From the IMG/VR virus record IMGVR_UViG_3300042444_000023, positions 1 through 29,317 of that record: 29,317 bases of DNA. One strand, 5' to 3'. Shown here one piece after another: positions 4,272 to 29,249 of this stretch (positions are counted from its first letter, which is position 1; each line of letters begins with the position of its first letter). The notes under the pieces were generated by a model. That model saw only the letters and a program-made list of their open reading frames with translations, had not been told where the DNA came from and did no database searches. This stretch comes from a virus. Position numbers and translations under genes: made by a program.

Positions 4272-5240
4272 TTAAAAAGGTGTTTTTGTTTGGTGTTCTG
4301 GTTTGTAATAAGTTCCCCTATTGGCGTAAACTCTATTTCCTTTGTAATCTAACATATAGTATTGGTAGCGATCTACGTCTAGAAACATTTTGTAGATTCC
4401 GTTTTTTGACACGCCTTTGGGTTTACTCTTTGCTACTTTCAAATGTACTTCGTTTTTTTCTGCGCCCGTTCCGTCGCTATTTGCTAGTCCGTAAGGAGGT
4501 CGCCAAGGAATTAACACGCTTAGACCTTTTCTAAACCATACTTGACCGCCCGCAAAGTCGCGCGCGCTAGGAATAGGGAAATAACTAACGTCTGTTCCAG
4601 CTATTGTTTTACTAGTTACCATTGGTTGGTCCCTTACGTGGTTTATAACGCAGTTGTGTCGGCCCGTTTTACGTGCGTTCTTACGAACTTGCCCTAAAAT
4701 GCGACTTAAATACTTGTCTTCGCGTCCTAGGTCGCTTTGTTGGTATTCTTCGCTTAACTCATTCCACGGGTCTATTGTAGTGGTGTGTATTTTAATCCCC
4801 TCTTTGCGTTCGATTTCGTCTACTAGGTCGTAAAATTTGGTTATGGTTAGGTCTTCGTCAATAGGATCAATTACGATGAAATGCTCGTTTACAAACATTT
4901 CGGCGCTTACTTGTTCGCCGTTTGTCATTGCGTTCTGGCCTTGCACGTATGGTTTGCCTATGTATTTATAGCAAAGTTCGGCGTATATTTCGGCAGCGCT
5001 TCCAGTTTCTGGGCTGAATACCACGTGTCGCCAGCCATGTAAACACGAAAGGTTTATAAGAAATTCAAACCATAGTTCTGTTTTACCGCTTGCGGGTGCT
5101 GAGCCTATGTAAGTAGTACAACCCTCTTTGATTGTAAAGGGTAACATATCCCAGTCCCAACCAATGCCTTTTCCTTTTACGTCTTTTTGTAGGCGTATTT
5201 CGAACATTTCCGAATTTAAGTTTTGTAGTCTAGTGTACAT
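4272..5240 (-). CDS. DnaB-like (SF4/RecA-fold) replicative helicase
   Basis: A 322-residue ATPase that matches the C-terminal motor domain of DnaB/Twinkle helicases without the N-terminal primase-binding domain. Walker A is GSAPASGKT (46-54). Walker B is the hydrophobic strand TTTIDP (153-158). INHVRD (199-204) fits the sensor that follows, and PSARDFAGGQVWFRKGL (224-240) occupies the place where DnaB family members carry the DNA-binding loop and late motifs. It should unwind DNA at the phage fork as a hexamer. The gene directly follows the DnaD-like gene (start next to its stop), which fits a loader and helicase pair. No primase or toprim domain is present in this protein or elsewhere in the window, so the phage probably uses host primase and polymerase. 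Confidence 0.85.
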   Translation of the reverse strand: MYTRLQNLNSEMFEIRLQKDVKGKGIGWDWDMLPFTIKEGCTTYIGSAPASGKTELWFEFLINLSCLHGWRHVVFSPETGSAAEIYAELCYKYIGKPYVQGQNAMTNGEQVSAEMFVNEHFIVIDPIDEDLTITKFYDLVDEIERKEGIKIHTTTIDPWNELSEEYQQSDLGREDKYLSRILGQVRKNARKTGRHNCVINHVRDQPMVTSKTIAGTDVSYFPIPSARDFAGGQVWFRKGLSVLIPWRPPYGLANSDGTGAEKNEVHLKVAKSKPKGVSKNGIYKMFLDVDRYQYYMLDYKGNRVYANRGTYYKPEHQTKTPF

Positions 5241-5861
5241 TTATTCCCAAATTGGTGCTGGTTGTTTGTATATAGGTTTGCTTGCGTCTACTTGTTTTTG
5301 ATTCCATCGCTTTATTCGTAGTTCTAAATTAAAGCTAGTTTGCTTTTCAAAGCGCATCTTTTTGTCTTTAGGTCCGTGTTCTGTCCAATACTCGTAAAAC
5401 TGTCTTACCATTTCTTTTCCGTACAATTCTACAAAAGGAACTAGACTAGAAGCAAACATTTGTTTGCGCTCTTTAATACTATCTATTTCTTTATCTTTAT
5501 CTACTTCTTTAATGCTAGAGCCTGGCTTTAGCGTCGCTTTAGCCTTGCTTAAGCCACCCTTACGACCCGACTCGCTGAGTTTCAAACGTTTAGCGGTTAT
5601 TTCTTTACGCTCTAAATCTAAAAAAGAAATTACTAAAAAAGTTTTTTTCGTCTTTAAATAATTTTTTTCAATCAATTTTTCAATTAATTCTGAATTTCTT
5701 AAGCGCAGCTTTGCCTCCTCTATGGTTAGGCAATTATTCCTATTCCAGTATTCAGCGCATACGCTTATAAAAGCGCCTTGCAACTCAAAACTTTCGTAGC
5801 TTATATTTCCCGTGATCCATTCGGTCGCGTTAAATTTAAAGAATGGTAGTTCTTTGCTCAT
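5241..5861 (-). CDS. DnaD/DUF1376-like replication initiation protein
   Basis: A 206-residue protein with two parts. The N-terminal part (about 5-95), beginning with FFKFNATEWITGNI and including LQGAFISVCAEYWNRNNCL, resembles the winged-helix DUF1376 / DnaD-like domain of phage replication proteins. A charged linker (about 96-140) is rich in Lys, Ser and Glu and contains SGRKGGLSKAKAT. The C-terminal part (FYEYWTEHGPKDKKMRFE, about 160-178, then LELRIKRWNQ) is the short motif common at the end of Bacteroidota phage replication proteins. It probably recognises the origin and recruits the helicase encoded next to it. Upstream is the structured leader at 5862-5985, whose terminator-like hairpin ends 20 bases before the ATG, so expression may be controlled by attenuation. 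Confidence 0.75.
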   Translation of the reverse strand: MSKELPFFKFNATEWITGNISYESFELQGAFISVCAEYWNRNNCLTIEEAKLRLRNSELIEKLIEKNYLKTKKTFLVISFLDLERKEITAKRLKLSESGRKGGLSKAKATLKPGSSIKEVDKDKEIDSIKERKQMFASSLVPFVELYGKEMVRQFYEYWTEHGPKDKKMRFEKQTSFNLELRIKRWNQKQVDASKPIYKQPAPIWE

Positions 5862-5971
5862 TGTTTAATTTTTAGGCAACAAAAAAGCCTCATAAATCCG
5901 CGAGGTCCGACTTTCGCTTCATTATAAGGCTTCAATAATTCCTTTGAGTTTATGGTGTCGGACCAACTCAT
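5858..5971 (-). CDS. Possible 37-residue leader peptide
   Basis: An open frame starts at the ATG 5969-5971 and ends in a TGA that overlaps the ATG of the DnaD-like gene (ATGA, 5861-5858), the coupling seen throughout this genome. The peptide would begin MSWSDTINSKELL and contain GPRGFMRLFCC. It is read straight through the hairpins of the structured leader. It may be a real coupled gene, a leader peptide that times the hairpins, or chance; the RNA structure alone could explain the conservation. The start sits only three bases after a -7 box, so translation would need a transcript from further upstream or a leaderless one. Confidence 0.35.
   Translation of the reverse strand: MSWSDTINSKELLKPYNEAKVGPRGFMRLFCCLKIKQ
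5882..5970 (-). ncRNA. Structured leader RNA with terminator-like hairpin
   Basis: Read on the minus strand, hairpin 1 has TGAGTT (5970-5965) pairing with AACTCA (5950-5945) and an inner GGT/ACC around the loop CCGAC. Hairpin 2 pairs AAGCCTTATAA with TTATGAGGCTT over 11 bp (one G-U) and encloses GCGA/TCGC with a loop containing GTCGG. T6 follows directly. The two loops are complementary, and GGTCCGAC (5964-5957) can instead pair fully with GTCGGACC (5911-5904). This could be an attenuator, a riboswitch-like element or a small RNA. See the finding for tests. Confidence 0.6.
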
Positions 5972-5974
5972 GTA

Positions 5975-5982
5975 CAAATATA
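5975..5982 (-). promoter_or_regulatory. Candidate -7 box TATATTTG before the structured leader
   Basis: An exact TATATTTG on the minus strand, identical to the -7 boxes at 2945 and 7872, sits four bases before hairpin 1 of the leader. No TTTG or TTG is found at the right distance upstream (the region is the end of the DnaA-like gene), so the promoter is incomplete or activator-dependent. Confidence 0.5.
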
Positions 5983-5986
5983 ACGT

Positions 5987-6415
5987 TTATTTTTCTAAAA
6001 GGTTGCTTTCCGCTAAAAGTTTTTCGTAAACACCTAGCTTAACACGTCGTCGAATACGTTTGAAGTCGCGAATAGTTCGGGCCTCTATAATGTCCGTTTT
6101 TAGGTCGCGTTTTTTAGCCGTGCTTTCTTCTGGGAATATCAATACGCTGCCCTCTAGTTGTTGTTTGAGTTGTATAGTTTCGAACTTGTAGTCTTCGTCG
6201 TTATAACCCATTAGGTTTTCATGCGTTTTAAGCCCATGAATTATAGTAGCGTGGTGCTTACCGAATATTTCACCAATTTGCGAAAGGCTAAAGCCGCTAG
6301 TTCTAAGTTCGTGGTATAGGAACGCGCGTTTGTAAATCAATCCGCGATCTCTACACTTGTTTGTTAAGTCGTAAGCCGCTATAAGTTCGTGAATAAGTGC
6401 TATTTTGTTTTTCAT
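5987..6415 (-). CDS. DnaA domain IV-like DNA-binding protein
   Basis: A 142-residue protein. From about residue 24 to 68 it matches the DNA-binding domain IV of DnaA: RGLIYKRAFLYHELR, then FSLSQIGEIFGKHHATIIHGL (42-62), where DnaA has S-L-x-x-I-G-x-x-F-G-x-R-D-H-x-T-V-x-H. The first His of KHHAT replaces the usual Asp of RDH. The rest (about 70-142) is basic and helical with RDFKRIRRRVK and is unlike DnaA; no AAA ATPase domain is present. It probably binds an origin or operator. It is the last gene of the operon that starts at 7849, overlapping the small gene upstream by four bases, and lies immediately before the replication-gene leader. Confidence 0.8.
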   Translation of the reverse strand: MKNKIALIHELIAAYDLTNKCRDRGLIYKRAFLYHELRTSGFSLSQIGEIFGKHHATIIHGLKTHENLMGYNDEDYKFETIQLKQQLEGSVLIFPEESTAKKRDLKTDIIEARTIRDFKRIRRRVKLGVYEKLLAESNLLEK

Positions 6416-26166: not shown

Positions 26167-27318
26167 TTAGAACGCAAAATAGGCGTCGTCGGTAAAGTAT
26201 TGCCCTTTGATATAGGTTGTCGCGTACCTTACGGCGTCCATAGCATCGTCGAATAGCTTAACGGGTTCATCCGTGATTGTGTCGCCTATCTTTTTCCATT
26301 TGTAGTTTTGGTATTCCTTTTCCAAATTCTTGTCGGCTAGGGCAAACACGCCAAAGGTTTTAATGTTGTCGATACCCTTTTTGACGACCTTATTTGCGTT
26401 AAGGACGTTGTACCCCGCGTTATTCATTTCGGCAATGATCTCGGGGCGTGCGTAGTCGGCAATTATTTCGGTTTCCTTTTCGACGTCTAGCGATGCCATG
26501 CGGTCTATAAGGTTCGAGGTGGTAAGGTAGCTTTCGTATATTACGGGTTCTATGAATATGTCCTTTTCATGCCAGTAAATACGCATTAAAGCGGTGGGGT
26601 GATTATACCCAAAGTCTAGCCCGTATACAAATTGCGTGAAGCGTGCGGGGCGGTGTGGTAAAAACGTCCAGTTTGAATATATGTTGGCTTTGCTTATTGC
26701 GTGTTCACCTAGCGCATAGATTTGATACAGCGCTTCGTCGGTGCGTTTGAGGTCCTCAATTTGGCGTTTGATGCTATCTGGTAGAAACGGGTTGTCGCGG
26801 TACGTGCTTTTGATTAGTACGCTTTCGTCTTTTGGTAGTTCGTAAAGCCAGCTTGTTGAGTCGGACGGGTTATAATCAAAGATTAGCTTTTGTTCGGTAC
26901 GCATGTTTAGCTGCGTAAAGTCGTCTAGAAAAAGTTCGTTTGCCTCGTTACACCATGCCACGTGCCTTTTTCGGCCCCTTATTTTCTGCTCGTCGTCAAC
27001 TGAAAAGAATTCGACTATCGAACCATTCGGGAACGTGTATATGTGTTCGCTCATGTTATGGCTAGTCTTGTCGTATATTCCCGCCTCTTTAAGCACTTCT
27101 AGAAAGTCGCGCATAGCCGTTGCCCGTAACGCTGGGAAAGTCTTACGAATGATGCTGACAACCTTTTGAGGGTTCTGTAAGCAATACACCATTATAAGCT
27201 GGCAAAGGCTGTACGTCTTACTTGAACGGCTGCCCCCTTCGTTAATGATAAAACGCGCCTCGTTATTATAAAGCGCGTCGTAATTCCGTTCAAAAACTAT
27301 TGTAGACTTGAGATCCAT
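26167..27318 (-). CDS. terL: Terminase large subunit
   Basis: A 383-residue packaging ATPase-nuclease. The Walker A-like motif is GGSRSSKT (28-35). Walker B is HVAWCNEAN (119-127, with Glu125 as catalytic). The coupling motif is FDYNPSD (147-153). The C-terminal RNase H-like nuclease has YGLDFGYNHP (232-241, Asp235), IIADYARPE (285-293, Asp288) and KLFDDAMDAVRY (354-365). All key residues are present. It pumps DNA into the prohead and cuts the concatemer. The sequence resembles PBSX/Terminase_3-6-type large subunits. The small-subunit gene is directly upstream, sharing one base. Together with the permuted contig ends it suggests headful packaging, though the cut mode cannot be proved. Confidence 0.93.
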   Translation of the reverse strand: MDLKSTIVFERNYDALYNNEARFIINEGGSRSSKTYSLCQLIMVYCLQNPQKVVSIIRKTFPALRATAMRDFLEVLKEAGIYDKTSHNMSEHIYTFPNGSIVEFFSVDDEQKIRGRKRHVAWCNEANELFLDDFTQLNMRTEQKLIFDYNPSDSTSWLYELPKDESVLIKSTYRDNPFLPDSIKRQIEDLKRTDEALYQIYALGEHAISKANIYSNWTFLPHRPARFTQFVYGLDFGYNHPTALMRIYWHEKDIFIEPVIYESYLTTSNLIDRMASLDVEKETEIIADYARPEIIAEMNNAGYNVLNANKVVKKGIDNIKTFGVFALADKNLEKEYQNYKWKKIGDTITDEPVKLFDDAMDAVRYATTYIKGQYFTDDAYFAF

Positions 27319-28357: not shown

Positions 28358-28515
28358 CTTTCGTGTTTTTCTATGGTTTCTACTATAATTCCTATGCCGC
28401 TCAAAGCAATAAAGCACCCCGTTAAAAACAAAGCGTGTCGGTATTCGCATAGGGCTATTAATACGCCTATTGACATAACAACAATGCCCGCAGCTATTTT
28501 ATTGGTCTTTTCCAT
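28354..28515 (-). CDS. Tiny two-pass membrane protein, 53 residues
   Basis: A 53-codon gene found by reading the gap between the sigma-like gene and the next. Two hydrophobic segments, at about 7-22 (IAAGIVVMSIGVLIAL) and 29-46 (LFLTGCFIALSGIGIIVE), are joined by CEYRHA, so it should be a membrane hairpin. The stop TGA overlaps the downstream ATG (ATGA, 28357-28354), and the start lies 17 bases inside the end of the sigma-like gene. The leader is AATATAGTTATAGAA. Its role is unknown. A holin-like or immunity role fits such a size, but the known holin is elsewhere. Confidence 0.7.
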   Translation of the reverse strand: MEKTNKIAAGIVVMSIGVLIALCEYRHALFLTGCFIALSGIGIIVETIEKHER

Positions 28516-29080
28516 TTCTATAACTATATTCGATTTCCTTAATTCTTTGTTTCAAAGCCTTTATCATGTAGTACGCAGAGGTCCTAGGTATGTCGAAGAA
28601 CTCGGCCATTTCTCTAGAGGTTTGGCGGCGGTGTTCAAAATACGCCTCGGCTATCCTTTTTTCCACGGGGCTAACCAATTCGTCTAAGTAAATAGCTATG
28701 CAAGCTTTGCGTAGGTTTATAAGTTCTTCTATTTTGACCTTATGCTCTATTTCGGTGTCGTTGGGTTCGTCTTTTGCTATGTATTCTTGGCTATACACCT
28801 CGTCTTGTTTTCTACTTACCGACGTAGGCCACCATACTTGCATTTTAATTGTGTTAAGTAGGTAGCTTTTTACCGTGTTTTGGTCGGCTTCGTGATCGTC
28901 CATGCTAGCAACGTGCAAATATGCGTTGTTTATTATGGTGTCAGCCTTGACCATTATTAAGTCTAGCTTTTTATGGTGGCGTAAACGCGTCAACATATGG
29001 TTAGTATATGCCCTAACCTCGTCGTAATTCGCGGTTATATACGCGTCAAGAATTTTTTTGATACCAGACAAGGAACTCAT
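28499..29080 (-). CDS. Sigma-factor-like transcription regulator
   Basis: A 194-residue helical protein. The C-terminal region (about 130-190) has the build of sigma region 4: LDELVSPVEKRIAEAYFEH, then TSREMAEFFDIPRTSAYYMIKALKQRI, a helix-turn-helix with a final recognition helix. The N-terminal 100 residues are helical with NAYLHVASM and LLNTIKMQVWW, loosely like sigma region 2. It may direct host RNA polymerase to late promoters. It sits at the head of the packaging and tail unit. The start ATG 29078-29080 is chosen because the extended frame is broken by a TGA in the other repeat copy. The first 98 codons are duplicated at 1-294 with only silent changes. A related phage small-terminase or replication role cannot be ruled out. 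Confidence 0.7.
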   Translation of the reverse strand: MSSLSGIKKILDAYITANYDEVRAYTNHMLTRLRHHKKLDLIMVKADTIINNAYLHVASMDDHEADQNTVKSYLLNTIKMQVWWPTSVSRKQDEVYSQEYIAKDEPNDTEIEHKVKIEELINLRKACIAIYLDELVSPVEKRIAEAYFEHRRQTSREMAEFFDIPRTSAYYMIKALKQRIKEIEYSYRNGKDQ

Positions 29081-29249
29081 TATAAAAGTTAGTGCGATCC
29101 GAAGCGGCGCACAAACATCGGTTGTCATTTTGGCCCGTTACGGCGTTCTTTATCTTTTGCAGCTTTTTAAGGTGCATTTTACTTAGCCGCGTTGGCGTAA
29201 GTTGTTCGAGCAATTTGCTAGCCTCTAGTTGTTGAGCCTCTGTAAGCAT
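29046..29249 (-). CDS. Conserved small phage protein, 67 residues (right copy)
   Basis: This copy of the gene at 260-463 differs by one silent change and two replacements: it reads DRTNFYNEF where the other reads DRVNYYNEF. The V/T change takes three base changes in one codon, which is more than drift between near-identical strains would usually give and hints at selection or recombination there. It overlaps the start of the sigma-like gene by 35 bases. For a description see the left copy. Confidence 0.8.
   Translation of the reverse strand: MLTEAQQLEASKLLEQLTPTRLSKMHLKKLQKIKNAVTGQNDNRCLCAASDRTNFYNEFLVWYQKNS

Follow-up and report, generated by a model that had tools for sequence, protein, structure and literature searches.

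What lies between two replication-like genes on the minus strand of IMG/VR record IMGVR_UViG_3300042444_000023? The window, i.e., the whole stretch of DNA analyzed here (29,317 nucleotides, positions 1 to 29,317 of that record), carries a gene whose product resembles the C-terminal part of DnaA at positions 5987 to 6415 (PF08299 at E = 1.4e-6, narrowly short of the Pfam cut-off). Downstream of it, at positions 5241 to 5861 with its ATG at 5861, lies an open reading frame for a DnaD-like, putative replication-initiation protein. In PHROG, this product matches two families of unknown function, phrog_19415 and phrog_29280, and it has relatives in 56 viral contigs. The first-pass annotation, made from this single sequence, had read the segment between the two genes as a structured leader with a -7 box, two hairpins with complementary loops, and a terminal T run. 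All of these elements were found on the minus strand as described, and relatives of the segment showed covariation.

Layout of the element in the window

The element was read directly from the minus strand at positions 5982 to 5881 and consists of a -7 box, hairpin P1, hairpin P2/P2b, and a run of six T residues. The -7 box, TATATTTG (positions 5975 to 5982), is of the Bacteroidota type TAnnTTTG. It is followed by hairpin 1, which is formed by the P1 5' strand GAGTT (5965 to 5969) and the P1 3' strand AACTC (5946 to 5950). Its loop contains kissing strand 1, GGTCCGAC (5957 to 5964), and ACCATA lies between this strand and the P1 3' strand. Hairpin 1 had been described as having 6 + 3 bp. The P1 stem indeed has 6 bp in the window, 5 of which are conserved among relatives, but the inner 3 bp (GGT/ACC) are not conserved.

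A linker of 14 nt (5932 to 5945) leads to the terminator hairpin; it contains the conserved motif GGWATTATT (GGAATTATT in the window), with near-invariant columns in a class A alignment. In this hairpin, P2 (5' strand, 5922 to 5931; 3' strand, 5886 to 5895) is separated by an internal loop on both sides from P2b (GCGA, 5914 to 5917; TCGC, 5900 to 5903). After AA, P2b GCGA is followed by kissing strand 2, GTCGGACC (5904 to 5911), in the terminator-hairpin loop. GGTCCGAC (5964 to 5957) and GTCGGACC (5911 to 5904) are complementary over 8 nt. The T6 run (5881 to 5886) is the putative intrinsic terminator and 3' end of the RNA. The ATG of the replication gene follows the T run, as had been annotated, but at a distance of 19 nt (5862 to 5880) instead of 20. 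Direct reading of the window revealed no second TAnnTTTG box between the T run and the ATG. Folding of the lone window sequence gave a z score of -2.4, with 4 of 200 shuffled sequences equally good. The fold was thus only moderately better than that of shuffled sequences, and a single sequence did not suffice to rule out chance.

Comparison of class A relatives

Searches with the DnaD-like, DnaA-like, and helicase proteins each yielded tens of viral contigs, and pattern scans added further relatives. The RNA type of the window itself is referred to as class A. In the DnaA-like/DnaD-like neighborhoods, nearly every locus had the same RNA layout, and the hairpin loops changed in step. Covariation in related phages, a check proposed by the first-pass annotation, was assessed in 26 distinct class A sequences. 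Across the 27 pairs of the four helices, 99.9% of the cells were paired, and 22 pairs had changes on both sides. Double changes occurred in 4 of the 5 P1 pairs and 8 of the 10 P2 pairs, and both of these helices were paired in 100% of cells. P2b contributed 4 pairs (all with double changes), and the kissing strands contributed 8 (6 doubly changed, 99.5% paired). None of 500 shuffles was as good on pairing or covariation, and sliding of the partners by 1 to 3 columns lowered pairing to 31 to 46%. The pseudoknot was also counted independently, in another alignment (54 distinct sequences) that had been fitted to a covariance model blind to the kissing pairs; these pairs held in 95.4% of cells, with double changes in 6 of the 8. 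Eleven different kissing-strand sequences occur across class A. The loop sequences vary no more than the other stems, and thus nothing marks the loops as specificity seeds.

The same 8-bp pairing had been annotated as an alternative fold that competes with both hairpins. Since all four helices are kept and covary together, it is, on comparative grounds, a loop-loop kissing pseudoknot that coexists with both hairpins. The comparison thereby supports the annotated arrangement of kissing loops, promoter-like box, and terminator ahead of the replication genes, and the alignments confirm that the conserved structured RNA with kissing loops is real. The TAnnTTTG box ends 3 to 5 nt before P1 in all 93 distinct class A loci, which places the RNA start at about the base of P1 and fits the earlier suggestion of a small RNA made from its own promoter. 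All listed members carry a T run, although it was among the extraction criteria and its presence is partly built in. Class A RNAs have a tandem-GA internal loop. The alignments were inspected for a riboswitch-type core and contained a few invariant linker and internal-loop positions and no large conserved core. One clear copy per genome was found in 13 class A genomes.

L041 is a natural recombinant with the loops of two lineages and imperfect pairing (a mismatch). An enlarged version of the RNA is found at L056:1977-2079 and L057:1965-2067; its hairpin 1 is longer, and additional complementary stretches lie beside the loops.

Distribution and family status

The class A model matched Cellulophaga phage phi19:1 (E = 9e-8), Flavobacterium phage FL-1 (E = 3e-7), and, weakly, morran9-1 (E = 0.027); the class B model, built for the sister class described below, gave a weak match in FCV-1 (E = 0.005). 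These four phages and 11b, FCL-2, and V186 all have the -7 box, both hairpins, and the T run. Their loops share 7 to 8 complementary bases and differ in sequence among the seven phages. These cultured relatives were found only with the covariance model and the architecture scan. When named phages were searched at the DNA level, neither the RNA of the window nor a class B RNA retrieved any relatives, and a search of GTDB genomes via two helicases gave none either. The architecture scan yielded 181 matches (94 distinct) in 2.66 Mb of loci versus 1 in a Markov-1 control. The loci were partly picked for having the RNA, and the count of 181 is thus a measure of specificity and not of frequency. About 94 distinct sequences with the same architecture are located near replication genes.

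The comparison with Rfam that had been suggested was also performed. Rfam 15 at the gathering score gave 0 matches in the window, the best hit for the segment alone had an E value of 0.72 (unrelated families), and neither 8 viral relatives nor the cultured phages had a match at the position of the RNA. This test covers the Flavo-1 and Bacteroidales-1 families only if they are part of Rfam 15. By the Rfam test, the predicted RNA is a new family. A search of the open-access literature revealed no description of it. A widespread, strongly supported RNA family is thereby added to a phage group for which no regulatory RNA of such a kind was found described, and its presence in cultured Flavobacterium and Cellulophaga phages makes it directly testable.

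In morran9-1, the hypothetical gene gp042 is annotated across the kissing RNA (L293:2619-2762) and is probably not a real gene. The same phage carries a separate known motif, the DUF805b RNA (RF02914), at L293:1300-1334.

A third copy of the loop sequence in class B

A sister class of RNAs, class B, occupies the same site. In this class, P1 is short (GGGT/ACCC or GTTC/GAAC, among others), the loop spans 6 to 7 nt, P2b has 3 bp, and the two loops are fully complementary to each other. An AGUA/GAA internal loop, which the extraction pattern itself required, is present in 38 of 38 class B loci; its sequence is that of a sarcin-ricin or loop-E motif.

Of the 38 distinct class B loci, 36 carry the hairpin-1 loop sequence once more, as a third copy 0 to 5 nt before the downstream ATG. 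This copy covaries with the loops through seven states (AGGCAG, AAGCAG, GTGCAG, ATGCAG, GAGCAG, GTTGCAG, and GGGCAG). Permutation of the loops among loci, which ignores the relatedness of the sequences, gave a mean of 7.0 and a maximum of 17 of 38 matches in 20,000 permutations, compared to the 36 observed. The two exceptions are L072 and a second RNA copy in L198. L072 is a natural recombinant whose loops and start-site copy belong to different types. In L198, the second copy (4705 to 4786) is a diverged kissing RNA (GTTACGG/CCGTAAC) directly before an HNH endonuclease gene. Outside the 38-locus set, the third copy is absent from L063 and L313/L314, and L310, a separate lineage, has a three-way match at the start codon.

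The 19-nt spacer of the window carries no third loop copy, and within class A the start-site copy was found solely in the L098/L102 lineage. A search for loop targets elsewhere in the phage revealed no enrichment among 111 class A loci. Likewise, no enrichment of loop sequences near gene starts was detected in 14 near-complete class A genomes, including the window (the loop of one of them, G010, was misread).

Genes next to the RNA

The DnaA-like gene is located upstream of the RNA in 113 of 131 loci. Class B RNAs nearly always precede a replication-initiation gene with interchangeable N-terminal domains. The gene downstream of class A RNAs varies and is often a small gene or a homing endonuclease gene, so that the RNA is at most a candidate regulator of any one particular gene there. 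The first-pass annotation had proposed control of the DnaD-like and helicase genes. For class B, the start-site copies strongly suggest that the RNA controls the DnaD-like/replication gene, and for the class A of the window such control is only inferred.

Homing-endonuclease-type genes follow the RNA in FCV-1, V186, and some viral loci. HNH or GIY-YIG homing endonuclease-like genes are placed right after it in L050, L245, L246, L247, L297, L302, and L180, and the site looks as if it were a preferred landing place for such genes.

Proposed mechanism and alternative explanations

The best explanation, to which we assign a probability of about 0.5, is a structured phage RNA of ~95 nt with kissing loops that would gate expression of the replication operon. 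Its structure and synteny come from the comparison of relatives, and we infer transcription from the box, termination, and regulation. Transcription would start at the RNA's own TAnnTTTG promoter beside P1 and end at the intrinsic terminator, resulting in an RNA of ~95 nt in which the hairpin-1 loop and the terminator-hairpin loop would form a kissing complex. In most cases transcription would end at the T run and release a small RNA; transcripts that read through would carry the same RNA at their 5' end, as the leader of the replication operon.

Judging from the class B relatives, the terminator-hairpin loop may be the anti strand. In class B, the anti loop would have two partners of the same sequence, hairpin 1, which is made first, and the start site, which is made last. 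In the simplest model, an anti loop bound to hairpin 1 would leave the start site free. If a second RNA or a protein, or else a folding choice, removes hairpin 1, the anti loop would take the start site, and its pairing there might block initiation or permit it, as in IncI-alpha repZ. Because Bacteroidota initiate translation on unstructured leaders, repression would be the more likely direction in this class B model. Acting in trans, the small RNA, once free, could also occupy these sites, which would provide dosage feedback on replication-gene expression. In class A RNAs that have no start-site copy, the kissing complex would act via termination, RNA stability, or a trans partner. Since the window's class A has neither a start-site copy nor loop targets in the 14 genomes, it may work via termination, a free small RNA, or a host partner. 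The absence of the start-site copy from class A (except L098/L102) and from a few class B RNAs speaks against the gating explanation, as do the lack of enriched loop sequences near gene starts in the 14 genomes, the unremarkable variability of the class A loops, and the changing downstream gene of class A.

A more specific form of it is possible and is put forward tentatively. It would be a phage replication switch in which one transcript holds a target loop and, within its terminator hairpin, an anti loop, joined in class B by a second target at the start codon, with the released RNA serving as copy-number feedback. The terminator hairpin would then both end the transcript and decide the translation of the replication gene, a plasmid-style control operating in phages. 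If the start-site copies work as they look, one hairpin would be both a terminator and a translational lock on the replication gene; if true, this resembles plasmid copy-number control.

Several other explanations have to be weighed against gating of the replication operon. The RNA could be a stand-alone small RNA that acts in trans or assembles with itself, its loops holding its own shape, joining molecules, or meeting a host RNA, and its position setting only the timing. The promoter box and terminator of all members, the varying class A downstream genes, and the lack of the start-site copy in most class A loci are consistent with this somewhat doubtful alternative, but the covarying start-site copy of class B points to cis action there, and enriched partner sites were not found in the class A phage genomes. 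A transcription attenuator appears unlikely; in it, read-through past the T run into the replication genes would be set by the loop-loop pairing itself or by a protein or ligand stabilizing or breaking this pairing. In its favor, the kissing strand is located inside the terminator hairpin itself, the -7 box is not repeated between the T run and the ATG, and the tandem-GA (class A) and AGUA/GAA (class B) internal loops suggest a rigid, recognizable shape. However, the kissing complex leaves the terminator stem unbroken, and the RNA is thus not a classic antiterminator.

The site between the DnaA-like gene and the DnaD-like/helicase genes would suit an RNA that marks an origin or primes the replication of phage DNA. 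This is quite improbable, as a primer would need no terminator, homing-endonuclease-type genes follow the RNA in FCV-1, V186, and some viral loci, and the GC skew shows no clear turn at the site. The loop copies are also inverted and direct repeats that change together, as would be expected of repeated DNA sites for a phage regulator whose shifting specificity makes them covary. Such sites are nearly excluded by the covariation of the flanking stems P1, P2, and P2b, and the copies sit exactly in hairpin loops. The leader peptide mentioned in the first-pass annotation, encoded by a 37-codon frame that ends in ATGA in the window, is refuted. Its ATG is present in only 27 of the 93 class A loci, the open frame ranges in length from 0 to 50 codons, and P1 at about the transcript start leaves no upstream room for ribosome binding. 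A frame kept at the expense of pairing had been named as the outcome that would speak against a structured RNA; the opposite was observed, with the pairing kept and the 37-codon frame not.

Comparison with known RNA systems

The ColE1 RNAI/RNAII pair has short, fully complementary hairpin loops that kiss, and the fully complementary loops of 6 to 7 nt in class B resemble them. Here, in contrast, the loops are part of one transcript on the same strand, and there was no sign of a primer role. The phi29-type prohead RNA (pRNA) is a phage small RNA with complementary loops. The RNA described here differs from it in its fold and in having no Rfam match, and it belongs to the replication module, ~20 kb from the terminase gene (positions 26167 to 27318 of the record). 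Identity with the phi29 pRNA was rejected by this location, which is not that of a packaging module.

The phage RNA would work most like the replication leaders of IncI-alpha plasmids, from which it differs in several respects. IncI-alpha repZ is activated by a pseudoknot between a loop and the start region (PMC8383071). In the repZ leader/Inc RNA system of IncI-alpha ColIb-P9 (also IncB and IncL/M), a leader hairpin loop pairs just before the gene start and another RNA competes for the loop, a scheme that the class B phage RNA would share. The competitor of repZ is a separate antisense RNA, whereas here hairpin 1 and the anti loop share one transcript, the anti loop is part of a terminator hairpin, and the system is found in phages. 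A hairpin loop complementary to the start of the replication gene, as in repZ, was found in the 36 class B loci; the window itself has no such match. If the class B reading holds, the RNA would be a variant of the loop-loop pseudoknot regulators of replication genes. In pT181-type attenuators, a terminator in the leader of a replication gene is subject to an RNA-RNA choice (PMC8383071), and the phage RNA would likewise combine these two features. It differs in that no antisense transcript is known here and in that the loop-loop kissing leaves the terminator stem intact.

Ends of the record

The ends of the record, positions 1 to 463 and 28499 to 29249, bear near-identical minus-strand genes. 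The sequence MLTEAQQLEASK... is encoded at positions 260 to 463 and again at positions 29046 to 29249 with a few residues different. These near-identical genes make it probable that the two ends of the record join, overlapping imperfectly.
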